Origin: a virus
DNA: 64,000 nt
IMG/VR virus record: IMGVR_UViG_3300045919_000302
Location: 1 to 64,000 of that record
Reading direction: 5' to 3' (one strand)
Below, one piece after another: positions 16,290 through 61,767 of the stretch (within the stretch, counting starts at the first letter, position 1; the number at the start of each line of letters is the position of its first letter). The position numbers and the translations under genes are program-made. The notes beneath the pieces were generated by a model. The model saw only the letters and a list, made by a program, of their open reading frames with translations. It made no database searches and was not told the DNA's origin.

Positions 16290-17921
16290 TCAATCGACCT
16301 GTTTACGTCTCCATTCCGAGGCGTAATGCTTCTTGCATTTCCGATGGGTGCCGACCGCAGGTAATCCACAGTGGCAATTCCCATAAGAGCCCTTCGGCCT
16401 TCCGGTAATCCTCCCCGGAGGAATGCCGCTTTTCTCTTTCCAGTGGATGGTGCAAAGTCCGCCCCTTTTTGCAGCCATGGATTGACAGCCAAATATTACG
16501 CAATGCTTTGCCGCTTTTTTCGGCTTGATATAGCCCTCTTTTTCTCTGGCCTCAGCGTAATGACGCGAGCAAAGATTCCTGGAGAAAATATCCCTAGCGC
16601 ATCCCTCAGTGAGGCATGACGTCGCACCGAACGCGACTCTCTCGATGTATTTCTTATATCCAACGTTTCCGGCCCTTCTCTTCTCAACCAGAGAGCAGTT
16701 CTTGCAGAAATCAGAAACGCCAGATGCTTGTCGGCCGCAATTCTTACAGTACCTGTCGAACCTGTTTTGAACTACTGGGGTCACAGGAAGTTGTTCAGCT
16801 TCACACCTACCTGGCAAGTCGTAAGAACTGATGGGATGGTTTGTTATCGCTGCCGACCCATACCTCTTAACGGCTGCTAAATCGTAAACCTTCTTTGCCT
16901 CTTCTTCGGAAGCGTACCTGCCGAGGTATTCGTTCTTGTGATTGAAGGTGATTGATACCTCGAACTTACCCTTGCGGTATCTGACGCCTATGGGTCCACC
17001 TTTTTTCCTGGTCCTATTGTGGTTATTTTGAGCGATCGTAATAACCCGCAGCTTGCATCTCCTGTTGTCCAGGCGATTCCTTTCAATGTGATCCACAACC
17101 ATTCCCGGCGGTGCGGTCATCACCTCCCTGTGAAACGGAATCACATGGCCCCCGTCTCTCCGGCAAAGGTAGCCACCAGCCGAGAAATACCAATTATGGC
17201 TCCCTATTTTCTCTAGGTCATCCCGATCACAGAAGATGTACTTGCCCTCTAAAAGTAGAGCTGCGTGCTGATCCGTGAATTCAGAGGGTTTGTCAAATCC
17301 CTCAGTGACCTCTACCGGCCTTCTCTGGCCGGTGAACTGATGCGCGTACTTTGGCTTTACCCTGAACTCATATTCAAAAATAATCTTTGGGTCTTCCTGA
17401 ATCCTGACGTACCCCATCTGCTTGGCGTACTCATCAACGCTGCAACCCATGACCCTCGCTTTTTTCCACGGGGAGTATTTGTGAATGAAGTTTCCGTCTT
17501 TATCCTCGTAGTGAAATGACTTCTCTGTTTTTCCTACTCGCTTAAAGTTGGTGGCCAAATAGATGACGCCGCTATGACCCTCAGATGGTGAGGCATATGA
17601 CTTCACCCCAACCCATTTCCTCTCTCGCTCTAGCATTCGAAGACATCTGCCAAGAAAAAAGCTTTCTGTATTTTTTGGCGTGTCATCGACGACGAAGAAT
17701 CTGCTGAGATTCAGCCAACCAGAATAAGACTCTTCGCTTTGTTTTCTTGAGAACTTCCCAAACACTGCCATCCCAAGCAAGGTGTTCGCCGTCCTAAGCA
17801 GGAAAACGACCTGGGATTTCGGGGGAAACGTCCCCGTGTAGTGCCTCGACGCCAGCCAATCCCTTAGAGACTTGTTAATTTCTGAAGCCTTCTCTACGTA
17901 AAAATCACCGATCGCACCCAT
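16290..17921 (-). CDS. Mom-like DNA-modification enzyme fused to HNH/AP2 endonuclease
   Basis: A 543-aa protein. Residues 1-215 resemble Mom-family adenine-modifying proteins (GNAT-like fold): LSRFFVVDDTPKNTESFF, then GRCLRML, then KSYASPSEGHSGVIYLATNF. Mu Mom converts adenine to a carbamoylmethyl form that blocks restriction. Residues ~225-305 hold an HNH endonuclease (MVVDHIERNRLDNRR) and ~310-365 an AP2-type DNA-binding domain (IGVRYRKGKFEVSI). The last ~150 residues carry several CxxC and C..H pairs, as in zinc-binding ends of homing endonucleases. The Mom part looks complete, so this is a fusion rather than an interrupted gene. It stands alone between terminator/AT-rich DNA and the structural genes. 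Confidence 0.72.
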   Translation of the reverse strand: MGAIGDFYVEKASEINKSLRDWLASRHYTGTFPPKSQVVFLLRTANTLLGMAVFGKFSRKQSEESYSGWLNLSRFFVVDDTPKNTESFFLGRCLRMLERERKWVGVKSYASPSEGHSGVIYLATNFKRVGKTEKSFHYEDKDGNFIHKYSPWKKARVMGCSVDEYAKQMGYVRIQEDPKIIFEYEFRVKPKYAHQFTGQRRPVEVTEGFDKPSEFTDQHAALLLEGKYIFCDRDDLEKIGSHNWYFSAGGYLCRRDGGHVIPFHREVMTAPPGMVVDHIERNRLDNRRCKLRVITIAQNNHNRTRKKGGPIGVRYRKGKFEVSITFNHKNEYLGRYASEEEAKKVYDLAAVKRYGSAAITNHPISSYDLPGRCEAEQLPVTPVVQNRFDRYCKNCGRQASGVSDFCKNCSLVEKRRAGNVGYKKYIERVAFGATSCLTEGCARDIFSRNLCSRHYAEAREKEGYIKPKKAAKHCVIFGCQSMAAKRGGLCTIHWKEKSGIPPGRITGRPKGSYGNCHCGLPAVGTHRKCKKHYASEWRRKQVD

Positions 17922-18110: not shown

Positions 18111-19610
18111 TTAGTACAGGGTGCTTCCAGCGCCAAAGCCAGACGGGCTGATCGTCGCCAGGTTCGACAGCGTGACGGTTCCGTAGAACTCGCTGCGAGC
18201 CAGGAGCTTCGCGTAACGGGTACGGATACCCTTACGGAAGCGGAAGTCATTCGGATCAAGGAACGTCGCCGACACCTGGAGCGGAACGTACGGGGCCCAG
18301 ACGTAGCCGGCATCCACGAACGAGGAGCCCTTGTAGCCCATGACGATCTTGTTCGAGGTGAGATACGGGTCCTTGTAGGCCATGAAGCGGGACATCACGG
18401 TCCCCATCTTCATGATGCCCCAGGTCTGCGGCTGCTCGACCTTGGCCATCGCTTCAGCATCGCCCGCGAAAACCGGCCGGAAGAAGCCGTCGGTGGACAG
18501 CTGTTCGATCTGAGCGGCGAAGTCATAGCTCATGACCATGAAGTTCGCCGGACCGCGCAGGGTGTTCTTGCCGATCTGGTTCGACAGGAGGGTCATCGGG
18601 GTGAGCGAACCACGGATATGGTCGAGTTCACGAACGCCCGAGGGAACCGTCATGTCGTAGGTCGCAGCGCCGCCGGTAGCACCGAGCTTGATGTCCTCGA
18701 TGATTTCGCGGTCGATTTCGAGCGCGAGTTCGGAGCCGACGCCGGCCACGAGTTCCTGCTCAGCATCGATGCCGTGGAGGGCCTTCAGGTCGTCGGAGGC
18801 TTCCGAAGACCAGAGAGCCTTGATCTTACGGCTCTTCGCGGTCACGGCCACAAGGGCGATGTCCACGTTGACCGTCGGGATCTTGCTCGAACCTTCCGAA
18901 ACGTACTCGTAAGAGGCAACGATCGGAGCGAGGTTGGCCGGAGCGGACGAGAACGTCACGGTGACAGCGCCGGACGTGTAGTTCACGGTGCCGGAGGCCA
19001 CGCCCGTGCCGGTGAGGTTACCAGCGCCGTCATCAACAGCGGTAACGCTGCCGACAACGATCTTGAGCTTGGTGGCGCGAGCCGGGATCCAGGCGAGGGT
19101 GTGCGAGAAGGCGACCGTGGTGCCGTCGCCGGTACCGAACGCTTCACCGTCGATGAACTCCGAAGAGTAAGCGCGGTTGAAGTCCTTCACGAGCTTGTTG
19201 CCAGCAGCAACAGCGCCCTTGTTGTCGCCGTACTTCAGTTCGAAGTAGAAGATCGCGCCGACCGGAGCGGACATCGGCTGGATCGAAACGATCTCAGGAG
19301 CGATGAGGCTCGGCCACACGCGGCGGAGGAGCGGGAATGTGTACTTGATGAACGGCGCGGTGTTCACCGTGGTGGTGTCTTCGCCGAGCACGTGCTTCTC
19401 TTTGAAGCTCTTCAGCTCATGGAGCTGATTTTCAAAAAGCTGCGCGAGACAGTACTTGCGGTAGGCATCCATCTGGATAGGCCGACCGGTGGAATCCTTC
19501 TGGGGGATCCATTTGTTCCAACGCTCGATGAGCGCCGCACGTTGCGGATTACGGGCAAAACCTTCGCCCGAGAGATCCGATTTCATTTCCTGAAGCTGCC
19601 GCTGTTCCAT
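18111..19610 (-). CDS. Major capsid protein (T4 gp23-like)
   Basis: A 499-aa protein with the gp23 hallmark TAPFIKYTFPLLRRVWPSL and the following APVGAIFYFELKYG. The N-terminal ~77 residues are helical and probably removed: the sequence VLGE at residues 74-77 matches the (L/I)xE site of T4-type prohead proteases. Residues about 156-237 form an inserted beta-rich domain similar to one in the tail sheath. The C-terminal part (MGYKGSSFVDAGYVWAPYVP) is conserved in the family. It forms the icosahedral shell. A short hairpin lies before its start, and a strong terminator follows. Confidence 0.93.
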   Translation of the reverse strand: MEQRQLQEMKSDLSGEGFARNPQRAALIERWNKWIPQKDSTGRPIQMDAYRKYCLAQLFENQLHELKSFKEKHVLGEDTTTVNTAPFIKYTFPLLRRVWPSLIAPEIVSIQPMSAPVGAIFYFELKYGDNKGAVAAGNKLVKDFNRAYSSEFIDGEAFGTGDGTTVAFSHTLAWIPARATKLKIVVGSVTAVDDGAGNLTGTGVASGTVNYTSGAVTVTFSSAPANLAPIVASYEYVSEGSSKIPTVNVDIALVAVTAKSRKIKALWSSEASDDLKALHGIDAEQELVAGVGSELALEIDREIIEDIKLGATGGAATYDMTVPSGVRELDHIRGSLTPMTLLSNQIGKNTLRGPANFMVMSYDFAAQIEQLSTDGFFRPVFAGDAEAMAKVEQPQTWGIMKMGTVMSRFMAYKDPYLTSNKIVMGYKGSSFVDAGYVWAPYVPLQVSATFLDPNDFRFRKGIRTRYAKLLARSEFYGTVTLSNLATISPSGFGAGSTLY

Positions 19611-19652: not shown

Positions 19653-21284
19653 CTACATCAAAGCTTCGATCTGATCCTGGGTAGCTCCTGGAGTCAGATC
19701 TGCAATTTCCCCAATGACCCCTTCGACTCCGGTGGAGCGGCGCTTTTCTGTGCCGGTCTTCTTCACCTGATCTTCGACGAGGTTGGTCGTTTTGACCCTT
19801 TCAAACCTTCTTCTCATGAGATTGTAATCTTCGTTTACGACAGGAGCAACGGCAAAACGCTTTACGATCGAATCGATCTCATTACGTTCTGTTTTGCCTT
19901 CGCAGAGTTTACGAATCTTCGCGGCGTTCGGATTGTCGCGAATGCACTCCTCGACGTAGAGTCGCATGCCCAAGCTCTTACTTGTTTCGACAGATTCCCT
20001 AAGGGCCTGTTCGAGCTTGTGCGTACGATCTTCGGCCGCCTTGATACGAGACTCCATACGAGCTTCGATCCGCTTGCGATCCATCTCGGCCTGCTTCTTC
20101 TTGGCCTTTCCAGCGGCGACCTTCTTCTTGGCTTCGGTGAGAGCTGCTTCGACCTGATCGACATTCTCGAACTTCTTGGCAGAGACGTACGAAAGAACTT
20201 CTTCACGGTCTTCACCAAGCTTCGCGAGCGAACGCTCGTAATGAAGCGTGGCGGCCAAGCGGTTGGCGACCAATCCAATCTCGTCAATCTTGGAAACGAG
20301 GCCCTTGTTCTCTTCCTGGAGCTGGGCGATCTGCGTGTCTCGAACCTTGAGAGATTCGTCGAGTTCAGCCGGGCTCGCGGCGACGATGGGAATGAGGACC
20401 TTCTTGATGTCTTCGAGCGCGATGTGCGCGGCAGCGAAGGTCGGATCCGCAAGGAGTTCAGCCTTGATGGACTCGCGAAGCTTCTGCTTCTCTTCTTCGA
20501 GGTTCGCAGCGGCGGGAGCGGCTTCTTCCTTCACGTTGGCTTCCGCGTTGGCTTCTGCGGCCGGTGTCTCGGTGACAGCAGGAGCCTCTTCCTTCTTGGG
20601 CTCTTCGACAGCAGCTTCTGGGGCCTTCACTTCCTCGGGCTTCTGAATCTCGGGAACTTCGTTCGATTCAGATTTCAATTCAACTGCCTTCGCGGTCTTG
20701 TCTTCCATTTGAGCATCCTTTTCTTTTTTCTCGTTCTCTTTGAGAACGGATTCGGGCTCGATCCAGCGAACCTCGGTGGTGAACTTAGGGTACGACGTGA
20801 GCACGGCCGGATCCGCTACGAAGTCGTGAGTCATATAGGCGTAGTCTTCCTGGACCACTTCCATGCCGCCTTCGCCCATGGCCGTTGATCCCATGCCGCG
20901 AGAAGATACGCCGACAGCTCCGCCGGCCTCCAGGATCGAGCGCAGCTGGTTGCCGTGCTCATTCAGGAGGATCTTGGCTTCGCCCAGGATGACCCCGTCG
21001 TCCGTCATACGGAGACCGGTCATGAGGTGAGACACGCGCTTGAGTGACGTCTTCCCGTCCGCCGGATGGTCCAGCTCGCCCATGACCTTGCCTGCTGCCA
21101 GGGACTCATAAATCTTCTGGATCTCGCGCTCCCAGAGTTTACGAGGATACATACGACGATTCTGCGTCGGGATGTCCGCACGCCCGAACTCGCCGCGAGC
21201 AACCAAGAAACGCCCCTGAGGCTCGTTACTTTCAGTCAGCTGGAGACGGAGCGCACTGCCGAAATCAATCAGAAGCTTTGACAT
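19653..21284 (-). CDS. Prohead protease fused to scaffold
   Basis: A 543-aa protein. Residues 1-180 form a T4 gp21-like serine protease: the ELDHPADGK block carries the likely catalytic His and GAVGVSSRGMGS the likely Ser. The rest is a charged, Ala/Glu-rich linker and long coiled coils (AKKKQAEMDRKRIEARMESR), as expected for a scaffold. In T4 these are separate genes 21 and 22; here they are one. The protease would cut capsid and internal proteins during maturation, including the tagged ones. It ends in TAG. Confidence 0.88.
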   Translation of the reverse strand: MSKLLIDFGSALRLQLTESNEPQGRFLVARGEFGRADIPTQNRRMYPRKLWEREIQKIYESLAAGKVMGELDHPADGKTSLKRVSHLMTGLRMTDDGVILGEAKILLNEHGNQLRSILEAGGAVGVSSRGMGSTAMGEGGMEVVQEDYAYMTHDFVADPAVLTSYPKFTTEVRWIEPESVLKENEKKEKDAQMEDKTAKAVELKSESNEVPEIQKPEEVKAPEAAVEEPKKEEAPAVTETPAAEANAEANVKEEAAPAAANLEEEKQKLRESIKAELLADPTFAAAHIALEDIKKVLIPIVAASPAELDESLKVRDTQIAQLQEENKGLVSKIDEIGLVANRLAATLHYERSLAKLGEDREEVLSYVSAKKFENVDQVEAALTEAKKKVAAGKAKKKQAEMDRKRIEARMESRIKAAEDRTHKLEQALRESVETSKSLGMRLYVEECIRDNPNAAKIRKLCEGKTERNEIDSIVKRFAVAPVVNEDYNLMRRRFERVKTTNLVEDQVKKTGTEKRRSTGVEGVIGEIADLTPGATQDQIEALM

Positions 21285-21451
21285 TATTTCTTCCTAAACC
21301 AGTAAGAGAAGCCAGGGATCTTGGTCTTCTTTGGATCGACCAACCTGCTCTTTGGTTTTTTACCCTGCTTCCGATCGTACAGCCTTTTCTCTAAAGCCTC
21401 AAGCGAGTCGGCGAGCTGTTTCGGGTTCTTGCCTCTGTACAATTTGTCCAT
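21284..21451 (-). CDS. Small basic head protein
   Basis: 55 aa from an ATG at 21451. It is Lys/Arg-rich (MDKLYRGKNPKQLADSLE; RKQGKKPKSRLVDPKKTK). Its location between the large internal-protein gene and the prohead protease is that of T4 genes 67/68, small prohead-core proteins. Homology is not shown; the match is positional only. No clear ribosome-binding site. Confidence 0.5.
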   Translation of the reverse strand: MDKLYRGKNPKQLADSLEALEKRLYDRKQGKKPKSRLVDPKKTKIPGFSYWFRKK

Positions 21452-21458
21452 TGATCGC

Positions 21459-24305
21459 TCAGTTGTGGAAGACCATGACTCCGTCGTCGGAGTCCACGAA
21501 GGAAACGGATCCATTCATCTCCGCATCGCGAGCATAGGCTTCGTAGTCGATCGAGAAGAGATTGAGCTTCATGATCTCTTCGATGCCGTAGCCCAGCTCA
21601 TCCATGAAATAACCGACTGCGTCCTTTTGGAGCTGCTCCTGAATATCACTGGAGTACCGATCCCTGAGTTCTTCGCGAGCATCGTCAATGACCTTTTGAA
21701 CCGAGTCGGCCCCATCCGTCAGAGTGAGCATCCGATCCTTAATCTCTTGAACCCTGCTTTTGTCTTCAGGGTCCTCTTCGTCGAGACCGTCCAGCTCATC
21801 TTGAAGTTGAGCCAGCTCCTCTTCAGCGGCTTCTGCCGCCTCAAGTTCTTCCTCCTTGTCGGCATCGGAGATGACCTCGCTATCTTTCATGTCTCCCACG
21901 CGACGATCAGCTTCTTCCGAGGCGATCAAACGCATGTCGGTTTCGGACATCGTCAGATAGTTCGCCGCATTGTCTTTGCTCAGTCCGCCCGTCTCTTCGA
22001 GGAAGTCAGCAGCCCAGTCTTCCTTGGACTTGGCCTGACCCATGTAAGCGTCTTTCGCCTGGTCGATCGTGGCTTTGCTGTCGTTCATCAGATCGATGTA
22101 GGCTTCAAGTATCTTGCGATCTTCCTCGTCAAGATTGAGCCAGTCCCAGACCTTCTCGTCGATGCTGGACTCGCTGTAGTACCGTTCCGGGAATCCCTCG
22201 TAGCCCTGGAACATCGGTTCCGGATCTTCTTCATCCTTGTGAAGCTCTTTGCAAGCTTCGAGGAACTCATCCTTGTCGGCGTAGTCTTCAAGATTGAGCC
22301 ACGCGCCCTTGATGCTGCCGTCGTTGTATTTGGCGTAGGTGCCGACGTAAACAGCCGGGCCAGAAGGGGCCTTGGCTTCGGTCTTCACCGACTCCTTGAC
22401 CGGCTCTTCGGTGCCTTTGCCACAATTCGGGCAGACGCCCACGTGCGGATCCGCGACGGTCGTTTCATCGTCCTTGATGCGGATCGGCTCGCCACAGTGG
22501 GGGCAGTTGTAACCGTCGGATGACTCAACCTTCTCCTCGCCATTCTTCAGCAAGGTCTTGCCCATGACCAACTCGTTGAAGCTGCCCAGGCCCATCTTGA
22601 CCTTGGTGTCTCCACCGCTCAATACCACTTCTCCGCCATCCATGTGGACGTGAAGCTTCTGGCCCACCTTCCACTCGGGCTGATCCGGCACCGGAGCGAG
22701 AACCGAATACACGGCCACATCGCGGGCCTCAGGGAGGGTGTAGCCGTACTTCTTCCCGTTGAACTCGACGGAAAGGGACTCGCCCACATCTCTGCGAACG
22801 TCGCCCTCCTTGTTGTAAGTCTTCAGGCACATCGAGTCGTCGCAAACGTGATCATCGCCCGACTTGTGAGAGGTGCTCTTTCCGCAGACGACGCACTCCC
22901 CGGTGACAAGCTCATTCTCTGCCATTCCCTTTACGGCGATCTCTGCCTTCTCGGAATGAGAGTCGTTGTATTTCTTAACGGCATCGGCAAGAGATGCAGT
23001 CTTAGGCATCTCAAGAGCCTTCATGAATTCAGCACCACCCATGCGCTGAGTTACTTTCCCATCCTTGTCTTTAACAACAACGCAAACAGGATCCTTAGCT
23101 TCAACCACCGACTCTTTGCCTTCGTCCGCAAGTTTGTCGTTCAGCGCGTCCACGAGTTCATCGCGATCCACGACGAACATCCAGGTATCATAGGAGGCAT
23201 TGCCGTAGGCGTAGTTGGACTTGCCATCCCAGTAAGCTTCGTTGAGGTCCTTCGTAACTTTCGCCTTGTCCTCTTCGGAGAGGCCAGCGACAAGTGCCTT
23301 GAAGATATCTTCCACTTCCTCGCCGTTCACGATCCCGGAATTGCCGTCGAGCTGAGTCTCAACCTCTCCGATCTGACCAGATCCACCGACCGCGTTCATC
23401 GGATAGAACACCCCAGACGCCTCGGGTTTCGCCAGACTGCTCAGGATCGCAGTGATGTCGTCCTTCGAGAGCCCGGCCTTGAGAGCGTCCTCTACCGGAC
23501 CCCATAGCTCGTTGTTGGTCATGTTGATCGCGAGGAGCGCATCCGTCGTGATGGTTTGACCGAGAGCGTCCAGGTAGTCCTGGCCGGAGTCCTCGTGCTC
23601 GGTTTCATATTCAGTATTGGACTTCACATTCTCATCAATCCAGGCCGCCAGCGCTTTCATCTGACTTTCCTTATCAGAGAAGCTGATCTCGCCCTGGGAC
23701 TCCTTGATGGGCTTGCTGCGCTTCTTGACGGATTCGTCTTTCGATCCTTCGCCGCCCTTCACGTATACAGCGACATGATAATAGTGTTCAGAGTCGTTCA
23801 TCGAGTGACCCGCGTCTTCGATTTCCTTCTTCACGACTTCGCTGACCTGGAGACCGTCTTCTCCAATTGCCTGTAGGATTTCATTCGCAAGGTCTTCAGT
23901 GTTGCCGCCACAAGCGGAGTAGGTCACTTCTTCTTCGATGGCGTCTTCAGAGACTGAGTCGCGCTTGACGGCTCCGCCAACAATCGAAGAAGGCAAAAGA
24001 TCGGCTTCGCCGTCCACCTTGGCACTCAGAACCTCTTTGCCGGTGACAACCAGCGTAACGTCCAGAGAGGTGACAACCTGATGATCGTTGTCGGCCTTGT
24101 CGGCGTCAGCTTCCAGTTCAGTCGAGATCTCATAGCCCTGTTGGGCGAGCATCTCGATCGCGTCATCCACAGCTTCTTTCTGGGTCATGCCGATGCCCAC
24201 GGAAACGTCGTCCCACTTCGAGTGAGAGGTCCCGCGACCCTGGAAGTACTGGGAGTGTTCCATGCCGATGTCTTCGATTTCAAATTCAACGATCTTTTTG
24301 CTCAT
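21459..24305 (-). CDS. Giant head-module protein with embedded ArdA anti-restriction domain
   Basis: A 948-aa, very acidic protein with AGGAG before the ATG. Residues ~648-772 match ArdA: VYVGTYAKYNDGSIKGAWL, the DKDEFLEACKELHKDEEDPE block and SIDEKVWDWLNLDEEDR. ArdA mimics B-DNA and inhibits type I restriction enzymes. The first ~70 residues (EDIGMEHSQYFQGRGTSHS) also look like a small domain found alone on mobile elements. Two zinc clusters occur near residues 468 and 600, and an acidic coiled coil near 850. The gene lies between the portal and protease, where T4-like phages encode head-core proteins, so it may be packed in the capsid and ejected with DNA. Confidence 0.75.
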   Translation of the reverse strand: MSKKIVEFEIEDIGMEHSQYFQGRGTSHSKWDDVSVGIGMTQKEAVDDAIEMLAQQGYEISTELEADADKADNDHQVVTSLDVTLVVTGKEVLSAKVDGEADLLPSSIVGGAVKRDSVSEDAIEEEVTYSACGGNTEDLANEILQAIGEDGLQVSEVVKKEIEDAGHSMNDSEHYYHVAVYVKGGEGSKDESVKKRSKPIKESQGEISFSDKESQMKALAAWIDENVKSNTEYETEHEDSGQDYLDALGQTITTDALLAINMTNNELWGPVEDALKAGLSKDDITAILSSLAKPEASGVFYPMNAVGGSGQIGEVETQLDGNSGIVNGEEVEDIFKALVAGLSEEDKAKVTKDLNEAYWDGKSNYAYGNASYDTWMFVVDRDELVDALNDKLADEGKESVVEAKDPVCVVVKDKDGKVTQRMGGAEFMKALEMPKTASLADAVKKYNDSHSEKAEIAVKGMAENELVTGECVVCGKSTSHKSGDDHVCDDSMCLKTYNKEGDVRRDVGESLSVEFNGKKYGYTLPEARDVAVYSVLAPVPDQPEWKVGQKLHVHMDGGEVVLSGGDTKVKMGLGSFNELVMGKTLLKNGEEKVESSDGYNCPHCGEPIRIKDDETTVADPHVGVCPNCGKGTEEPVKESVKTEAKAPSGPAVYVGTYAKYNDGSIKGAWLNLEDYADKDEFLEACKELHKDEEDPEPMFQGYEGFPERYYSESSIDEKVWDWLNLDEEDRKILEAYIDLMNDSKATIDQAKDAYMGQAKSKEDWAADFLEETGGLSKDNAANYLTMSETDMRLIASEEADRRVGDMKDSEVISDADKEEELEAAEAAEEELAQLQDELDGLDEEDPEDKSRVQEIKDRMLTLTDGADSVQKVIDDAREELRDRYSSDIQEQLQKDAVGYFMDELGYGIEEIMKLNLFSIDYEAYARDAEMNGSVSFVDSDDGVMVFHN

Positions 24306-24316
24306 GGCCCTGCTCC

Positions 24317-27300
24317 TTATTCCTGTTCCGGTTGGTCGTCGAGAATGGCGTCAACGGCCTTCTTCACTTCAGTTGCAAAATCCGACTCGTCGAGCGTAGC
24401 GACCAGCTGGTCGAACGTGTTGCCGGCCTGGTCGTAGGCGTAGTCCTCGACGAAGTCGTCACTCTTGAACGGAGAGACGTCGTCCAGCAACCAGAAGGCC
24501 CAGTTCCAGCTTGATCCGGCTTCCTGGATGCCGTCATAGATGTTCCGGTCATAGAGAGCGGCCGGCTCAAGGTCTCTCGACACTCCGCCGCTTTCGATAT
24601 GGATGTAAGCGGCCATCGCCTCGGATCCGGTGTAGGAATCTAATCCGCTGATGTCCGCTTCCACTGTAAAATGGTCAGACAGCTTTCCAGCCTTGGCTCC
24701 TTCCTGGTCGATCACTTCTTTCACGAAAGAAACGATTCCAGCCCTCGCGCTTTCCATGTTCTTGTCGGCGTACTCACGCGAAGCGAACAACTGGATGGTA
24801 TTACGCAGGTCTTTAATCACCTCTGGCTTGAGGCGGAACGCCTTCTGGACACCGAGTTCGGAATCAGCCTCTTCAGGGCTTACCATTTCGATATCACCCG
24901 AGTAGCCGTACTTCTTAAGGGCCGCTTCGAGTTTAGGGGTCAGCTCGTGCATATCTCCCAGATCATCTCCGGAGGACTCAGTGGTCTGCTTTAAAATCTT
25001 CTTGGCAGAATCGGTGTCGCCTGAGCGGACGAACTTACCGGAAAGGCTCTTGCCCATCGCGGCTTTCTTCTCCTTGGTCATGGACTTACCAGGGTGCGCC
25101 TGAGCAGGAGCCTGGACAGACTCCTCACTTGGGAGAAGGGCTTTCAGTTTATCCACGGAGAGCGGCTCGTCATTCATGTCCCAAAGCTTGCCGTTCCAAC
25201 TGACTTTCCCGACCTGCTTATCCCCAGACATGATCTTGCTGAGAAAATTACCGCCGCCCAAATTATACTTCTGAGCGTACTTCTTGACCTCGTCTCCCAG
25301 CTTGCCCACGTTGCTGGACGTGATCTGAACGCTTTCAGAATCGGATCCAGGAAGGGGCTTATTCGGGTCCTGACCGAAGTCCGGATTGCCAACGTTGGTC
25401 ATCACTAAAACAAGGCTTCCGGAATTCTCTCCGGATTCACTCATGCCCGAGCCCATGAGCTTGATGCCCTTCTCGAAGTCCTTGGCGGTCTCTTTGCTTC
25501 CGGAGTCCTTGAGATCCGGAATCAGAACCTCTTTGAGATAGTTGATGAACTCTTCCCTAGAGAAGTCGTCAGCAGACGAAGCGCCCTCAATGAACTTCAC
25601 GAGGGTCTCAAAGTCCTTCGCCGTCTCAAACCGCTCCATCTCTTCCAGATCCGGGATGAGCGTGCCCTTGAGGTAGCTGACGAAAGATGCCTTGCCGTCT
25701 TTCTTCTTGGCCTCATGCATATCGTCGTGATCTTCACGGCCGGCGATCTGGCACTTCGCGCAGAGCTTGTCACCCGGCTCGGCAACGAGGCGTCCGCATT
25801 GAGAACAGTGCTCGCCATCGCCATCAGCGTCGCGCCCATCCAGATTGTCCTGGGCGAAATCCCGGGGATCCCCGCCGGAATAGACGGTACTCTCAATGAT
25901 GATCATTCCCGACTCATCGCCCATGTCGGCGACGTAAGGGTTGATCTCTTTGAACTCCTTGGAGACGTTCGTCAGGATGTCGCCAACTTCCTCTTCGTAG
26001 TCGCCGTCCCAGAAACCAGCCCCGTGACCGTTCCGGGTCAGCCAGAAGTCGTGGCCCAGCTGTTCAAGGTCAGCAATGCCACCTTCGCCACGGCGACACT
26101 CCAGGTTTCCGATGTCGTAGCCGGCCTTCTCAAGCGCGGCCTGGGCCTTGTCGTAGAACTCATCACAGTCCTTCTCGGCCTGAGTCACGGAGTCAGCCGA
26201 GATATCGGCGATGGAATAGTTCCAGTCCATGGGCTCGCCGCCTTCGGGTGTGGACTCGTCGGTAGACGACCAGAGCGCCGTTTCCAGGTACTGGGAGACC
26301 ATAGGCGAGAGCTTCTTCTGAGCTTCGGTCATGTCCAGATCCCGCTTAACGCCGTCCGCGTTGTCGCTGACCACGCTCACGAGCTGGTCGAGGGTGCCCT
26401 TGAAAGGCTTGCCGCCTTCCTTCTCCCAGGCCGCGAGGATCCGCTCTGCGACCTTCTTCACATCCAGGGTGGTCTTCACCTTGTGGAGCATGGCGTAGAG
26501 ATTTTCTTTGCCGACTGCAAAACTGAACAGATCGTCTGCGTCTGCCGTGTCCTTCATTCTGGCGTCTTCGAGTTTGGGCTTAACCCCGGAACTGGACCCG
26601 GAGGCGAAGATGTGATCGCGGATGCTCGCGGCATCGCCCTCTTTCGCGCCGGGGAAGTCGGCGAGCATCTCGTGGAATGCGTCCTTCCAGTTCTCAAAAA
26701 TCCCGTCCGCGTTGACGGCCCAGTCCACAAAGGCTTCCTTGAAGCGTTCGACTTCGGTGTATTCCTTGAGTCCAGTAATGGAGGCGATCGTGCCGGAGGA
26801 GAGGCTACGAATCTCCTGCTCCAGCTTGCCGCTCATGTCTGACTCGCCCATTGCCTGCTCGACGGCCTTGTCCAGGCTTTCGACCATGATGGAAAGAATC
26901 TGGTGGGCTTCTTCTTCCTCGACCTTACCCTCGCGAATCTGCTGAGCCATGTAGAGCGCGTCGTCCTTGACCTTGCGGTAGTCGGCGTACTCGGGCTCCT
27001 TCTGTTCTGCGACGGGCTTCTTGACGCCGAGGATCTCGGCGAAGTCCTCGTCGAGCGCGAGACTGGAAGACGAGAAATCGGGAAGCTCGGGGAGATCTTT
27101 GAACCCGCATTCGCTGACGGGCTTCTCGACCGGCACCTTCTTGCTTTCGGTGGTAACCTTTTTCTCACCCAGAATGGTGATCAAACTGTCCACCAGCTTG
27201 GCCGCGTTCTCAAAGCCCCGAATCAGATTCATCTTCTCGCCCATCTTACCCTCCGTCAGATTCGCCAGGTACCCAATCGAGGAAAGATGAATCCTTCTCC

Positions 27301-27544
27301 GACTGCCCGGCTTGATGTGCATCCGCTTGCGGATCTTCGCACGCCTCTTGGCCATTCGTTTGTACCGCGAGGTCTTCCTGCGGCGTTTCGCCATTCTCTT
27401 GAGTCTTGCCTTACGCTTACGATAGTACCGCTTCCGCTTCATGCGGACACGAGCCGGTGTACGCTTAGACCGCGTAACGCGAACTTCGTACAACCAACTC
27501 TCAATCAGCAGATTCAGAATAGATGGCTCGACCACTTTTTGCAC
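24317..27544 (-). CDS. Giant internal head protein with basic arm and repeated small domains
   Basis: A 1075-aa protein starting with GTG at 27544 (AAAAGG just upstream). Residues ~22-80 are a strongly basic arm (RMKRKRYYRKRKARLKRMAK), suited to DNA binding. The rest is acidic. A pair of tandem repeats lies near residues 621 and 668 (LKGTLIPDLEEMERFETAKD and LKEVLIPDLKDSGSKETAKD). Near residue 495, GHDFWLTRNGHGAGFWDGD matches a domain common in mobile-element anti-restriction regions. A zinc ribbon lies near residue 585 (CSQCG...CAKC). Likely packed with the DNA and possibly ejected. Confidence 0.62.
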   Translation of the reverse strand: MQKVVEPSILNLLIESWLYEVRVTRSKRTPARVRMKRKRYYRKRKARLKRMAKRRRKTSRYKRMAKRRAKIRKRMHIKPGSRRRIHLSSIGYLANLTEGKMGEKMNLIRGFENAAKLVDSLITILGEKKVTTESKKVPVEKPVSECGFKDLPELPDFSSSSLALDEDFAEILGVKKPVAEQKEPEYADYRKVKDDALYMAQQIREGKVEEEEAHQILSIMVESLDKAVEQAMGESDMSGKLEQEIRSLSSGTIASITGLKEYTEVERFKEAFVDWAVNADGIFENWKDAFHEMLADFPGAKEGDAASIRDHIFASGSSSGVKPKLEDARMKDTADADDLFSFAVGKENLYAMLHKVKTTLDVKKVAERILAAWEKEGGKPFKGTLDQLVSVVSDNADGVKRDLDMTEAQKKLSPMVSQYLETALWSSTDESTPEGGEPMDWNYSIADISADSVTQAEKDCDEFYDKAQAALEKAGYDIGNLECRRGEGGIADLEQLGHDFWLTRNGHGAGFWDGDYEEEVGDILTNVSKEFKEINPYVADMGDESGMIIIESTVYSGGDPRDFAQDNLDGRDADGDGEHCSQCGRLVAEPGDKLCAKCQIAGREDHDDMHEAKKKDGKASFVSYLKGTLIPDLEEMERFETAKDFETLVKFIEGASSADDFSREEFINYLKEVLIPDLKDSGSKETAKDFEKGIKLMGSGMSESGENSGSLVLVMTNVGNPDFGQDPNKPLPGSDSESVQITSSNVGKLGDEVKKYAQKYNLGGGNFLSKIMSGDKQVGKVSWNGKLWDMNDEPLSVDKLKALLPSEESVQAPAQAHPGKSMTKEKKAAMGKSLSGKFVRSGDTDSAKKILKQTTESSGDDLGDMHELTPKLEAALKKYGYSGDIEMVSPEEADSELGVQKAFRLKPEVIKDLRNTIQLFASREYADKNMESARAGIVSFVKEVIDQEGAKAGKLSDHFTVEADISGLDSYTGSEAMAAYIHIESGGVSRDLEPAALYDRNIYDGIQEAGSSWNWAFWLLDDVSPFKSDDFVEDYAYDQAGNTFDQLVATLDESDFATEVKKAVDAILDDQPEQE

Positions 27545-29397: not shown

Positions 29398-32300
29398 CTA
29401 GCCCATCAGGAACGGCGGTGTGAAGTTGCTTTTCCAATCATGCCCTTGATTGGCCTCTTGTTCCAGGGCCTTCTCGGCATTGGCCCGCCACTCTTGTTTC
29501 ATTTCTTCAGAATTACTTTCTATCACGATGGTCGCAGCATCGTCGAGAACCCAAGTGTCTTCATCGGAATTCTGAAACATCTCACGCGAACTGATCGGCA
29601 CATCCAGAATGCCAGAGGCCGCCTCCGTAAGAGTCGTCGTAATCGCGGCCAGAGCATCTGCGATATCTTTGCTGCCGCGTTGCGTTGCCGGCGGGTGGTC
29701 TACTTTTCCCGTCTTCCAGTCCTTCTGGAGTTCGCGAAGCTCCTTGATGAGCGGCGGATAATTGTAGATCTGGATCCGGTTCTCGTAGAGCGCAGTCTTC
29801 ATGACTTCGTAAGGGCCGCCGGCAGGCTCCACCGAAACCACTCGGGTCTGGTAGCCTTGGCCCTTCACGGTCTGGAGAAGATTCGCAGACTGGAATTGAT
29901 CGGCGCTGACCTGCTTGATGAAGAAGCCGTGCTGAGTCAGCTCGTAAATAATCCGGCGGATCTCGGAATACGAGATCTCACCCCCTCGCGGAGCGCGTAC
30001 CTGGAGTACGAAGTCCACATGGATGATCGGGGCCATCTCCTGCTCAGCCTTGCCGAACCTCTGAATGGGCGCGTATCCGGCGACACACCCGACGGCGATA
30101 CCCGTACAGTCCTGGGTTTTTGATAAGTCGAGGTGCAGGTGCCTGGGGGCTTTCGGATGCGCCAGGGGCTCCCAGGAGCCGTCTGGGTGAAGTTTAGCGA
30201 GCTTCTGCCAGTCGAAGCGTCCTGGGATGTCCTGATCCCAGGTCTCCTGGCTGAATGGATGGGTGCGGTTCTTGTCTATGGCCTCGTAGATCTTCTCGCG
30301 TCGGGCGATGAACGGGGTGATGGCCACTGTAGATCTGCCGGCGTGGTCCCGGATCGCGGCGTCAATATCTTCGACGAACGCACCGTGGAACTCGACCGGC
30401 ACCTCGACTACTTCCATGCCTTCCGGGTCCGCCTCACCGGCAGTCATGATCCGGGACATCTTGGTCTCATTCCCGATGGCCACACGGAATTTCTTCCCGG
30501 AGAAACGTTCCTTTGGGACAGCCTCCCAGACCGCCCGCTCCCTGACGAACACAAGGGGATCGCCAACGTACTTCCGGATGAGCTTCTCCGTGAACGCATT
30601 GGGCGTGGTCTTCGAAGAGGCCACCAAGATAACGCCAGGGAGTCTGCCTCGATTCATGAATCGAGACTCCATTCGGCGCTTGATGGCTTCGAAGATCACC
30701 TCGATGTTTTCCTTTACTTCGCTCCGGCCGACTTGCTGGTCACGCTTGTGAAAGAAATTGCCTTCGTCAACGGCTGCACCAATCGCATTCGTACCGACCA
30801 CTTGTCCTGCGGTCGAGGCTCCGGGCGGGAACGTGAACCGGTTTGGAAAGATGATGCCGGCAGCGGCTGTGTTTCTAATCGGGGCGAAGTGCTTCCGGAA
30901 GAACTCGGACTCATCAACGATCGCCCGGATCTTCGATACGAGATTGCGCTCGGCCACGTCTTCTGTGACAGAGACGCAAGGGACTGATATGTAGTCGGTG
31001 CTAGAGATCTGGTAGGTCTCGTGCGGATCTCGCATGCAGTAAACGTCATACGCCATGCGAACACATCCAATGACTGACCCGGTGGAGTTGTGAGTCACCA
31101 GGAAGTTATCCGTCAGGTACAGCCCATTTGGATTGCTGACGGTAATGCAGCGCATCGGCACAACCTCGCCGAGACGTACGTTGCGAACCGTGTTGTAAAG
31201 TTGCGTCGTCTCGCCAAGCGCGTTGACCTTCTTTCGAGCCAGCCTGAATAAATTCTTATTATTTCTGCTGCGGATATAGACAGTGAACGAATCAGAACAC
31301 TCGTAGGTCTTGCTGCCGTCGCCGCTAGTGCGGTCGCGCCCAGCCCTCTTACTAAGGGAAGCATAACAACCCAAAGATCTCGCCAGCCATTGAACATCTC
31401 TTGCAAGTCGCTCGTTCGTGCTAAAGAATTTCACGCTTCCGCATTCTTTGTCTGCGCTGCCGTCGCTATCTAGGAGGCCCTGGAGTATCGCTAGTCTGGC
31501 AACCTTTGGAGCAAACTTATAACACTCTGGAACGAACTTAGATCCAGCATCGGCATTGAAGAGCCCAATCGTGCGCAACTGGAGCCTTAGCTTGTGGACT
31601 GAATCACCCTTGAAGCTGATATCGAAACAGTCCTTGCCGTACTTAGAGAAGTCGGTCACATAGTTGCTGCCAACGCGGTCAGCGATCTCACGATAGAAAT
31701 GAATATCTGCACCGTTGACGGTGATCTTAACCCTTCGATCATTCATCGTTCCATTTCCAAGCATATAGCCGAGCAGGTATGGGTCGATTGTCCTGCCGCC
31801 GATGTCCGTTAGATCTACAGCTTCGGTGATGGGTATTTTGAACAGCTTTTTGCTGCCCAGTTTTTTTGAAAATTCCCTGAGCGTGTGATCATAGACTTGC
31901 CTGGATGTCTTAATGCAATTTGAATTATTCCATGAAAGACATGGGTCGCTCTTATCTCTGCGCCAACCCCCATACCAAAGATGATCGCCGCAAGAGGAGA
32001 CCTCTTCTCCATCGCCCAGCTCGAAGATGTACTCCTGCTCCTGCGTGATCGCGTGTAATTCGCGAATGATGGCAATCGTTCCATCGGGATTGCAGATCTG
32101 GTCTCCCACCTTGAGATCGACGATCTGCCTGAAACCTGTTGGGGTCAGTACGTGGTCTTTGACGCGCTGCTTCTTGCCCCCGCCAAGTGAACCTCCCCAG
32201 ATCGCGGTGTTGTACCCGCCCTCAAAGATCTCGATCAGGTCTTTCTTGATCTCCGGAAAGAGAGTCTTGGTGATCGATCCTAAATAGAAAGGGTTCTCCA

Positions 32301-32517
32301 AGAACTCCTTCATCGATACCGGAGGAACCCGGTAGAGATCGCGCGAGGCGTACTCGATGATCGGGCTTGCCCCGTCACGCATGAAATCCTCCAGGACAGA
32401 GAGCGCTGCTTCGCGCTCGGGTCCTGAAAGTCCTTCCATCTCTCGCTGAAAGATCTCAGCGTACTCGGCGTCAGTCCGAATGGACTGAAACCTTCCGCCT
32501 TGATTTAGGATGCTCAC
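29398..32517 (-). CDS. Terminase large subunit interrupted by an intein
   Basis: 1039 aa as a precursor; about 677 aa after removal of the intein (residues 116-477). The Walker A loop GGSLGGGK|STGS is split exactly by the intein. Walker B is IGAAVDEGNF, and LVASSK is the coupling motif. The C-terminal nuclease half includes HLHLDLSKTQDCTGIAVG. The protein cuts and translocates DNA into the prohead through the portal encoded next. The start is GTG with no clear ribosome-binding site. The gene ends in TAG. Confidence 0.92.
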   Translation of the reverse strand: MSILNQGGRFQSIRTDAEYAEIFQREMEGLSGPEREAALSVLEDFMRDGASPIIEYASRDLYRVPPVSMKEFLENPFYLGSITKTLFPEIKKDLIEIFEGGYNTAIWGGSLGGGKKQRVKDHVLTPTGFRQIVDLKVGDQICNPDGTIAIIRELHAITQEQEYIFELGDGEEVSSCGDHLWYGGWRRDKSDPCLSWNNSNCIKTSRQVYDHTLREFSKKLGSKKLFKIPITEAVDLTDIGGRTIDPYLLGYMLGNGTMNDRRVKITVNGADIHFYREIADRVGSNYVTDFSKYGKDCFDISFKGDSVHKLRLQLRTIGLFNADAGSKFVPECYKFAPKVARLAILQGLLDSDGSADKECGSVKFFSTNERLARDVQWLARSLGCYASLSKRAGRDRTSGDGSKTYECSDSFTVYIRSRNNKNLFRLARKKVNALGETTQLYNTVRNVRLGEVVPMRCITVSNPNGLYLTDNFLVTHNSTGSVIGCVRMAYDVYCMRDPHETYQISSTDYISVPCVSVTEDVAERNLVSKIRAIVDESEFFRKHFAPIRNTAAAGIIFPNRFTFPPGASTAGQVVGTNAIGAAVDEGNFFHKRDQQVGRSEVKENIEVIFEAIKRRMESRFMNRGRLPGVILVASSKTTPNAFTEKLIRKYVGDPLVFVRERAVWEAVPKERFSGKKFRVAIGNETKMSRIMTAGEADPEGMEVVEVPVEFHGAFVEDIDAAIRDHAGRSTVAITPFIARREKIYEAIDKNRTHPFSQETWDQDIPGRFDWQKLAKLHPDGSWEPLAHPKAPRHLHLDLSKTQDCTGIAVGCVAGYAPIQRFGKAEQEMAPIIHVDFVLQVRAPRGGEISYSEIRRIIYELTQHGFFIKQVSADQFQSANLLQTVKGQGYQTRVVSVEPAGGPYEVMKTALYENRIQIYNYPPLIKELRELQKDWKTGKVDHPPATQRGSKDIADALAAITTTLTEAASGILDVPISSREMFQNSDEDTWVLDDAATIVIESNSEEMKQEWRANAEKALEQEANQGHDWKSNFTPPFLMG
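31087..32172 (-). mobile_element. Class 3-type intein in the terminase Walker A motif
   Basis: 362 residues (116-477 of the precursor). It lacks an N-terminal Cys or Ser (first residue Lys), but has the residues of class 3 inteins: Trp in the DHLW segment after the block B His, Cys in MRCITV (block F), and Thr in VTHN (block G) before a Ser. A LAGLIDADG homing endonuclease is present (LLGYMLGNGT and LLQGLLDSDGS). The DNA ends are set by the restored GxxxxGKST motif. Confidence 0.85.
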
Positions 32518-34983: not shown

Positions 34984-36114
34984 TTATCCGATTGGGTACG
35001 CCGACCCTGATTTTGCTGCCATCTCTTGAAGCCGGGCCGTCGGTCGGCCCAGTCCGCTCAAGATCGTGAAGAGGTAGATTGTGCTTTGGGATCCAGCCTC
35101 ATAAACTCCGCGATGGAGCTTTGTCTCCGGGCCCTGGGCCATCAGTCGGTTAAGAGAGCCAAAAGCGCCCTCAAGAGCCTCCTGCGTAACCGAAGCAAGC
35201 CCCTCGCCGTTACTGACAAGAAGCCCTGCCCCCACTTTCGCTTTCGAGAGATCGAGTCCTTCAACGAGAAGCCCCTTCTTCACGTTCTCACGAACCGCGT
35301 CGGCGACATCCGTCGGCTTCTCGATTCGCTCAAGCTTTGTCCTTCCAAAGCTAAGAATGCCAGATTCGAGGACGGTCCGATAGTCTTTTGGATCGCAGAC
35401 CACGTGACACTCTTTGCTGTCGATCGCACACAATTCGTTGAAGCTGCTGAACAGGGCGGCGATGTTTTTATTTGCGGTCTTCCATACGTCCACCACGCTG
35501 GCGGTGCCGTAGAGCTGCATCACTCGGGCGTTGTCCACGATGACCAGGGGCGAGAGATGGCCCTTCTCGGCCATGCCCAGGAGGGGCAGAAGGGTCTCCA
35601 GGGCGTTCCGCTGCACAGCCGAGGATTCATCCTTGGTCGGGAGGGTGACGATCACGCCGACGCGCTTCTCGGGATTCTGGACGCCGATGGAAGCCATGTA
35701 CCCCTTGGCGATCTTCACGAGCGGAAGGGCCGCTCCGGATCCAGTGCCGCCGCCGGCACCGACACAGATCAAGATCTGCTCGACGTCTTTTTTGAAGGAG
35801 GACTGGATCAGACGATGAATCTCTTCGCTCTCGGCCTCGACCGCTGCACGGCCCACGGCCGGATCCTTGCCGGCCCCACCATCGCCCCTCAGGACATGAC
35901 GATTCGCCTCGGGTACGGAGAGCCGCTGCATGTCGCGGGTCGTGGTGTTCACGATGGCCACGCGCCGGTAGCCCAGACCGTAGAAGGTGTCCGCAAGATT
36001 ACCGCCGCCCTGGCCAGCGCCAAGGAAGGCCATCTTCACGGCAGTCTTCTTTTCTTCTGTGACGGATTCAACAGTGGCTAAAACTTCGTCATCAATCTGT
36101 GAAAGGTCAAGCAC
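34984..36114 (-). CDS. Tubulin/FtsZ-like GTPase
   Basis: 376 aa from a GTG with AAGGAG six bases upstream; an open frame further upstream lacks a site. GTP-binding signatures are FLGAGQGGGNLADTFYGLG near residue 30 and the tubulin signature GAGGGTGSGAALPLV near residue 115. The length agrees with phage tubulins (PhuZ/TubZ type) but the sequence could also be another FtsZ-like group. Phage tubulins position the replicating DNA or nucleus-like body in jumbo-phage infection. The sequence does not show which subclass it is, and its C-terminal tail lacks an obvious acidic knuckle. Confidence 0.85.
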   Translation of the reverse strand: MLDLSQIDDEVLATVESVTEEKKTAVKMAFLGAGQGGGNLADTFYGLGYRRVAIVNTTTRDMQRLSVPEANRHVLRGDGGAGKDPAVGRAAVEAESEEIHRLIQSSFKKDVEQILICVGAGGGTGSGAALPLVKIAKGYMASIGVQNPEKRVGVIVTLPTKDESSAVQRNALETLLPLLGMAEKGHLSPLVIVDNARVMQLYGTASVVDVWKTANKNIAALFSSFNELCAIDSKECHVVCDPKDYRTVLESGILSFGRTKLERIEKPTDVADAVRENVKKGLLVEGLDLSKAKVGAGLLVSNGEGLASVTQEALEGAFGSLNRLMAQGPETKLHRGVYEAGSQSTIYLFTILSGLGRPTARLQEMAAKSGSAYPIG

Positions 36115-36263
36115 AACGATCTCCTTTTTCCCTAACAAATTAAACTCATCTTCAGTCAGCAGAGTGTAAACCATAATTGCGGAAGCCACCATCCTGGCAT
36201 TCGCAAGCAACCCAAGCAACAACCCTTTGACTCTTTGTCATGACAAAAGGTATAAGTCAGGCT

Positions 36264-41114: not shown

Positions 41115-41677
41115 CACTGGGCCACTCCATCGACCGAAAATGCAGCGGGACTTCCTCCATGCTCCATGTGCTCGGCAAAGGCCATGACCATCTCGCCGTT
41201 CTCCTGGTGGAAGTTTCGGGCCTCCTGATCGGAATAGATCTCTTTCAGATGCGGGGTCGCATACTTCTTCCAGAGGGCCATCCGGTCGTCGAGATTTGAG
41301 AGCTGGGCATCGAGCTTCTCGTTACCAAGCTCGAACCAGAAGAGGCCCTTGTACTCGTGTTTCTTGATGTCCTTGTGGCCGACGATCTTTAGCTCGTGCT
41401 GCTTGAAGAGCATGTTGGAATGCTGGATGCGCTCGTACTCGTCGAAGTTTCCGTGCTCATCGCAACCGACGTAGTGGAACCCGCCGCCGTGGACGCCGGA
41501 ATCAGGGATGTAGAGAATGTGGCCCGAGGTCTTCCCGTCCGTCACGAGGAGGATGTCACCTGGCTTCCCGGTGGACTCGATTTCGTCCTTCCAGCTCCAG
41601 GAGGTCTTTCCGTCCTTCTTGGTTTCAGGGATGGGCATGCCAAAGCGGTCAAGGGATTCAGAAAGCATAGGGCACAT
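41114..41677 (-). CDS. Tagged protein of unknown function
   Basis: 187 aa (MCPMLSESLDRFGMPIPETK), or 184 aa from a second ATG at 41668. The tag is nearly identical to that of the next gene. The body contains GDILLVTDGKTSGHILYIPD and a helical end (NLDDRMALWKKYATPHLKE). It overlaps the multidomain gene (TGATG), so the two are co-translated and probably co-packaged. Confidence 0.65.
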   Translation of the reverse strand: MCPMLSESLDRFGMPIPETKKDGKTSWSWKDEIESTGKPGDILLVTDGKTSGHILYIPDSGVHGGGFHYVGCDEHGNFDEYERIQHSNMLFKQHELKIVGHKDIKKHEYKGLFWFELGNEKLDAQLSNLDDRMALWKKYATPHLKEIYSDQEARNFHQENGEMVMAFAEHMEHGGSPAAFSVDGVAQ

Positions 41678-58530: not shown

Positions 58531-58722
58531 TCATGACTTCTTCTCCCTCTTGCGCTTGGCGTGCTCGATCAGCTCTTTCGTCCACTCCTTGCCGACCTTC
58601 TTCAGTTCGCGCTCGGAGTACTTCGAAACGCAGAAGCCCTCGCGCTCGTTGAACAGAAAGTTAGGAAGGCTCGGCAACCGGACTGAGCTGCGCTCGTCCA
58701 GTCTGATCATTTTGTGATGCAT
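58531..58722 (-). CDS. Small basic protein
   Basis: 63 aa, Lys/Arg-rich at the end (EWTKELIEHAKRKREKKS). Overlaps the end of the helicase gene by 62 bases. Function unknown. Confidence 0.5.
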   Translation of the reverse strand: MHHKMIRLDERSSVRLPSLPNFLFNEREGFCVSKYSERELKKVGKEWTKELIEHAKRKREKKS

Positions 58723-61432: not shown

Positions 61433-61767
61433 AGCCAGCCCCTGCCAATATTGACAACGTAGCAAGGTTTGCCCAGGATCTGATCGGGGAAGCCCATCGA
61501 GCGATTGGTGATTAAGATAAAAGTTTTTACCTTATCTGACTCGCAGTACCTAAGGCACTGTTTGTAGATCGCTTTCGGCGAGCCTTTAATCTTCACTTCG
61601 ATGGCGATCCCGTCTTCACGGAAGAAGTCGGGTCGGCTCTTCTCGTCGAGCCGGTACTCCGGGATGAAGCCCGGGAGCAGTGGGGCCATCTCAGTCTTGA
61701 GTACGGCCTCAGTGGACAATGAGAAACGGTGGCGCTTCAGTTGCGCCAGGATCTGTTCGAGTTCCAT
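61429..61767 (-). CDS. PD-(D/E)XK nuclease-like protein
   Basis: 112 aa. The core RPDFFREDGIAIEVKIKGSP has the Asp and the Glu-x-Lys of the PD-(D/E)XK fold, and KTFILITNRSMGFP is a likely later strand. It is translationally coupled to the helicase (GTGA overlap). The pair may act together on DNA, as in some VRR-NUC or restriction-like modules. Target unknown. Confidence 0.68.
   Translation of the reverse strand: MELEQILAQLKRHRFSLSTEAVLKTEMAPLLPGFIPEYRLDEKSRPDFFREDGIAIEVKIKGSPKAIYKQCLRYCESDKVKTFILITNRSMGFPDQILGKPCYVVNIGRGWL

Follow-up and report, generated by a model that had tools for sequence, protein, structure and literature searches.

A genuine ArdA domain within a modular head-gene product of a T4-type virus: a possible virion-borne anti-restriction protein

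Results

Gene content of the head block

The window, a stretch of 64,000 nucleotides from the start of a 149,291-base virus contig in IMG/VR, contains a T4-type head block composed of TerL with an intein, a portal protein, ORFs of 1075 and 948 aa, an S77 protease and a Gp23-type capsid protein. The genes are listed below; a slash within a motif marks the bond presumed to be cut.

18111..19610, minus strand: Gp23-type major capsid protein (PF07068, 2.3e-66), putative cut LGE/DTTT, with a conserved phi-G-E at the presumed propeptide end
19653..21284, minus strand: S77 prohead protease, the presumed processing enzyme (PF03420, 1.1e-14; phrog_207, 1.1e-39)
21459..24305, minus strand: modular ORF with ArdA (P0001), identified by its ribosome-binding site and by module homology to other giant head ORFs
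24317..27544, minus strand: 1075-aa companion ORF (P0002), a basic core head followed by modules; the same slot is filled in L005, L008, L009, L014, L071 and L072
27607..29388, minus strand: T4-type portal protein (PF07230, 4.4e-67)
29398-32517, minus strand: TerL with intein

The 948-aa ORF is a real gene, with an AAGGAG ribosome-binding site 9 nt 5' of the ATG at 24305 and with modules that have homologues in the giant head ORFs of independent contigs. It shares its strand with the portal, protease and capsid protein genes, and is thus encoded amid virion genes; it is also the one ArdA-bearing ORF of the source record. A preliminary description had put it between portal and protease, and the position is right, but it is not the sole ORF there, as the companion ORF separates it from the portal gene. 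No full-length relative of P0001 was found in a single-sequence search of phages and IMG/VR. The parts listed next lie ahead of the ArdA.

24057..24302, minus strand: "YFQGxG" N-terminal module, aa 2-83 of P0001, 45-54% identical to modules that stand at other positions in L005, L009, L008 and L006
23115..23720, minus strand: module aa 196-397 of P0001, 58% identical to L071 and flanked by the candidate cleavage sites E202/S and E402/A
22404..22541, minus strand: zinc-ribbon-like CPHCG...CPNCG segment, about aa 589-634 of P0001, with weak PHROG/Pfam zinc-ribbon matches and visible Cys pairs

As had been noted earlier, the N-terminal domain is also found alone, and we located it as a gene of its own (92-106 aa) in three other viral contigs (L229-L231). 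The whole 948-aa ORF has a net charge of -116, lacks a basic segment, and carries no targeting signal that could be recognised by eye. Even with E values as high as 1 allowed, a Pfam search of P0001 and P0002 showed no peptidase domain, and PADLOC gave no defence-family match in the six giant ORFs submitted to it. A small basic ORF of 76 aa (21284-21514, minus strand) overlaps the terminal part of P0001 and stops at the protease start; several relatives in the clade have a basic ORF of 136-139 aa at this spot.

The ArdA unit

P0001 contains a genuine ArdA. The structure prediction and the HMM search named in the preliminary description were both carried out, and similarity to ArdA was found by each. 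PF07275 scored 75.5 bits on residues 652-785 (cut-off 27; E 9.4e-21), and PHROG 2059, "anti-restriction protein", matched the same ArdA at 9e-19. Furthermore, a profile built from the head copies and 32 standalone ArdAs retrieved the Tn916 ORF18 ArdA (2w82/7bto/7btr) at 2.2e-14, in a match covering almost all of that protein; this value and the Pfam value rule out a chance match. The extent of the domain, earlier given as ~648-772, had to be revised to ~650-948, since about 135 residues are inserted in domain 3 just ahead of its last element. Aligned with standalone ArdAs the unit is complete, from YVGTYAKYN to DYEAYARD...VMVF, and its domains 1-2 are uninterrupted.

21951..22358, minus strand: ArdA domains 1 and 2 and the start of domain 3, aa 650-785 (PF07275, AlphaFold, viral fold matches)
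21549..21953, minus strand: helical insertion in ArdA domain 3, about aa 785-919, defined by alignment with standalone ArdAs and common to the four head ArdAs described below
21462..21548, minus strand: last ArdA element, DYEAYARD...VMVF, aa 920-948, matching in alignments the C-terminal end of both standalone ArdAs and Tn916 ArdA

A typical ArdA is an uninterrupted acidic three-domain chain of ~165 aa; that of P0001 is likewise acidic but interrupted in domain 3, with a charge of -20 over 136 aa, of -54 over residues 642-948, and a pI of 4.05 (~4.1). Alignment A6 holds 22 invariant columns with the window ArdA included, and the residues conserved in standalone ArdAs are kept. From an alignment of 36 sequences, AlphaFold returned a model of the ArdA with a pLDDT of 95.9 and a pTM of 0.80. 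When this model was compared by Foldseek with viral models (BFVD), three of the best four matches were antirestriction proteins, the best fold match having an E of 2.1e-4 and a probability of 1.0; against the PDB, Foldseek returned nothing significant, and no ArdA, for either of the two models searched.

A second stretch of P0001 in the same frame matches ArdA profile positions 41-151. A tandem duplicated ArdA was considered, but this stretch is mainly domain-3-like around the insertion and an interrupted ArdA fits better, although domain 3 may be partly duplicated. Segments related to the insertion, without the ArdA N-part, were found in L071, L005 and L009. There, C-terminal modules akin to the insertion and the end of the ArdA (L005 7053-8006, L009 about 2234-2431, L071 about 1566-1791) have a different N-terminal part, and may represent another shuffled cargo unit.

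In Tn916 ArdA, antirestriction has been assigned to domains 1-2 and antimodification to domain 3 (PMC3906837), and small proteins that match either end of ArdA, N- or C-terminal, are active by themselves (PMC12548430). It follows that the insertion does not necessarily abolish antirestriction, but it may alter dimerisation.

Distribution of the head ArdA

The capsid protein and the ArdA unit served as queries against IMG/VR. Three further contigs of this phage group have the same ArdA unit at the C-terminus of a giant ORF in the portal-to-protease slot, and its presence in four independent contigs rules out a chimera or a single-contig assembly error. The other giant ORFs measure 1127 aa (L072) and 1392 aa (L006/L014, one contig), while that of L003 is cut by the contig end; in L072 the ArdA and the basic core segment are on one chain. 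A tree of 126 ArdAs of viral and bacterial contigs, rough and built on few columns, places the four head copies together on a single branch (support 96/90; 98% of bootstrap trees). They are also the only ArdA ORFs longer than 360 aa among 131 distinct ORFs collected. No ArdA was found elsewhere in the contigs of the clade, including those of 160 kb and 134 kb; none was present anywhere in the examined contigs of four further members (L071, L005, L009 and L008), nor in the region covered by the short contig L004. An ArdA of 358 aa whose domain 3 appears to be duplicated was seen on a 414-kb viral contig (L037, 9641-10717), outside a recognised head block.

The companion ORF and the modules of the slot

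When a short N-terminal capsid targeting sequence of the T4 kind was looked for, P0002 showed SILNLLIE/SWL, followed by the conserved basic segment that is the first of its three listed parts.

27251..27487, minus strand: hyper-basic core segment, aa 20-98 of P0002, ending NLTE98/G (net charge +35 over aa 21-98)
25931..26320, minus strand: phrog_1915 module, aa 409-538 of P0002 (1.8e-27), at other positions in L005, L009 and L071
24344..24982, minus strand: module aa 855-1067 of P0002, common to L009 117-359, L005 303-507 and L014 117-274

The hyper-basic segment ends in N-[LMI]-x-E, with the N and the E invariant in all seven clade members aligned. In T4 the slot between portal and protease holds gp67 and gp68, proteins of 80 and 141 aa whose tails are acidic (gp67) and basic (gp68). 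The basic head was considered as a gp68 homologue and this was dropped, as hhalign gave a probability of 3%; because sequence homology to gp68 was undetected, the likeness to gp67/gp68 is one of position and composition. In about 50 more distant capsid relatives, portal and protease are mostly separated by about 2 kb, with the ORF ahead of the protease measuring 245-520 aa and often having a segment of 40-53% Lys/Arg. The ORF in the same slot reaches 927-2431 aa in the clade of the window, where the modules stand in combinations and orders that differ between phages. Two of the modules occur as single genes elsewhere, namely the N-terminal module of P0001 and phrog_1915, the latter matched in 283 phage records with single "hypothetical protein" genes as the top matches. 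In this phage group the slot protein seems to have expanded into giant ORFs of shuffled modules.

Candidate prohead-protease sites

T4 gp21 cuts after L/I-x-E, trims the internal proteins and fragments gp22, gp67 and gp68 (PMC9026906, PMC9958956), and proteases of related giant phages likewise cut after Glu (PMC5694885). In the clade studied here the capsid protein has LGE/D at its presumed propeptide end. Module junctions (n=158) were taken from the boundaries of local alignments among the giant ORFs, and a motif within 15 residues was counted. [LIVM]xE[SAGD] was found at 70 junctions against 47.8 +/- 5.0 expected, a count reached in 0 of 1000 circular shifts; the motif was broadened after looking, and homologous junctions are only partly independent. 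The strict [LI]xE gave p 0.011, and the control motifs [LIVM]xD, [LIVM]xK and the mirror motif were not enriched at junctions, nor was the phiKZ-type [AS]xE. The signal holds in more divergent subsets (p 0.003 or below) and in the two window ORFs alone (p 0.03). An overall excess of the motif was discarded as evidence of cleavage, as capsid proteins (ratio 1.43) and other large clade ORFs (1.45) are near the ratio of the giant ORFs (1.63), with portals at 0.95. On these counts, it is the clustering at junctions, and not the overall excess, that is specific to the giant ORFs.

The two window ORFs together hold 21 candidate sites, and those at 202, 402, 509, 526 and 638 of the 948-aa ORF fall between delimitable modules. 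The last lies directly ahead of the ArdA.

22389..22400, minus strand: candidate prohead-protease site PVKE638/S639, with equivalents LKE/D in L006, LTE/S in L003 and LEE/E in L072

Another candidate, ILE734/A, lies inside the window ArdA and is not conserved across all head ArdAs. The S77 protease ORF itself is 886 aa long in L014 (11439-14099) and L006 (7312-9972), where an insertion of ~385 aa splits the protease domain.

Discussion

It is proposed that the 948-aa protein and its 1075-aa neighbor are cargo polyproteins that grew from a T4-type prohead core protein. Both products would be taken into the prohead together with the core, with the basic segment as the likely anchor of P0002, and the adjacent S77 protease would cut them at [LIVM]xE between modules, leaving the freed modules with the DNA. 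On infection an ArdA fragment of about residues 639-948 would enter the cell with the genome and, as a DNA mimic, bind type I restriction enzymes before any phage gene is expressed. Packaging, cleavage, ejection and anti-restriction activity of the ArdA module are what we infer, and we put the probability of this reading at roughly 0.55. Packaging and ejection fit with a head-module protein that contains a true ArdA, with the occurrence of this ArdA at the same place in four phages and with candidate sites at module boundaries. Against this reading, one candidate site falls inside the window ArdA, the insertion disturbs ArdA domain 3, P0001 has no targeting signal or basic segment of its own, and the gp67 and gp68 that occupy this slot in T4 are largely degraded, so that by analogy some or all of the modules might be as well. 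The wider idea, that a T4-type core protein was turned into a cleavable carrier from which a protease acting in trans frees exchangeable counter-defence modules, a virion-borne ArdA among them, is more tentative and in our estimate falls somewhat short of an even chance.

The main rival is that the giant proteins are an enlarged scaffold or core in which the ArdA and the other modules are mere filler or acidic partners, degraded and expelled before packaging as gp67 and gp68 are in T4. The slot is that of two proteins degraded by gp21 (PMC9958956), a 948-aa ORF of net charge -116 adjoins a basic segment of +35, and the number of candidate sites in the two ORFs would suit degradation; filler, however, needs neither a conserved ArdA fold nor the turnover of unrelated modules in close relatives, and the 22 invariant columns, with the residues conserved in standalone ArdAs kept, as well as the clustering of candidate sites near module junctions, make us regard it as unlikely, at perhaps one chance in five. 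It may also be that the ArdA is ejected and working, but that the insertion has retuned it to BREX, to another DNA-binding enzyme or to host transcription. The insertion adjoins the part of the unit where Leu127 and Leu134 make dimer contacts in Tn916 ArdA (PMC3906837), BREX is also inhibited by the DNA mimic Ocr (PMC7261183), and a Mom-type modification enzyme of this phage (see below) could already cover some restriction; yet domains 1-2, the seat of antirestriction (PMC3906837), are uninterrupted and well conserved, and we consider such retuning improbable. That the ORF is an ordinary intracellular anti-restriction or accessory fusion, in the head operon by chance and never packaged, would agree with its want of a recognised targeting sequence and is very improbable, as an ArdA made from a late operon at head assembly would come too late to shield incoming DNA, conservation of the slot extends to four phages, L072 has the ArdA and the basic core segment in one chain, and ArdA is never found elsewhere in the contigs of the clade.

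Several components of the proposed cargo model have precedents. Multidomain proteins delivered with DNA and containing ArdA (PMC5512222) and injected anti-restriction proteins of T4 (PMC12373910) are already known. Like the polyvalent proteins (PMC5512222), the giant ORFs are large and multidomain, lie near virion genes, and have modules, in P0001 and P0002, that are also found single or reordered elsewhere; for the polyvalent proteins delivery with the DNA was predicted and ArdA is listed among their domains. They differ in that the ArdA of the polyvalent proteins is mainly from Firmicutes and linked with ArdC-N, and that those proteins are cut by embedded zincin or C-terminal assemblin-like peptidases, whereas here the slot is that of a T4-type core, no peptidase domain was found in the chain, and cleavage in trans is probably the work of the S77 protease encoded next to it. 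The internal proteins IPI-IPIII of T4 are head-carried, trimmed by gp21, injected and counter restriction (PMC12373910, PMC9026906), but each is encoded by a small gene of its own and bears a short targeting sequence at the N-terminus, in contrast to the giant fused ORFs described here. Moreover, the target of IPI is the type IV GmrSD enzymes and not type I (PMC12373910); T4 internal proteins thus act on a type IV system, whereas ArdA is a type I DNA mimic. In P1, DarA and DdrB also tie anti-restriction to head-packed proteins and are processed (PMC5512222), but have unrelated domains and belong to another phage type. The parallel drawn at first with P1 Dar and T4 IPI therefore calls for care. 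Since injected polyvalent proteins with ArdA are known (PMC5512222), calling the arrangement unusual was fair, but calling it unprecedented would not have been. Standalone ArdAs (Tn916 ORF18, R64; PF07275) resemble the present unit in sequence, predicted fold and acidity, but usually stand alone at 150-215 aa, and here the ArdA is C-terminal in giant ORFs and has the ~135-aa insertion in domain 3. No virion-borne ArdA, and no core-derived cargo polyprotein cut by a prohead protease, was found in a search of open-access literature.

An ArdA encoded on a plasmid or in a phage early region needs to be expressed in the new host first, while one carried in the head would be active immediately. Should the slot indeed be a cargo bay opened by the prohead protease, injected counter-defence proteins of uncultured T4-type phages could be located by a simple rule, which is to take the ORFs from portal to protease and split them at LxE sites. 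Loading, release and exchange of injected modules would become testable, and the remaining shuffled, unannotated modules would form a catalogue of anti-defence candidates.

Other genes in the window

A Mom-type DNA-modification protein with an HNH-like insert is encoded next to the capsid gene (16290-17921, minus strand; PF25680, 3.4e-21), and no Mom match was found in the contigs of the seven relatives searched. This phage may therefore have two anti-restriction layers side by side, one Mom-type and one ArdA. LAGLIDADG/Hint intein-like inserts are present both in TerL, apparently within the GGSLGGGK loop, and in an SNF2-type helicase (58661-61465, minus strand). The window also encodes a Tubulin/FtsZ-family GTPase (34984-36222, minus strand; 4.5e-12), of a type known in some jumbo phages, and an 871-aa protein with GNAT and NUDIX domains on one chain (38502-41117, minus strand).
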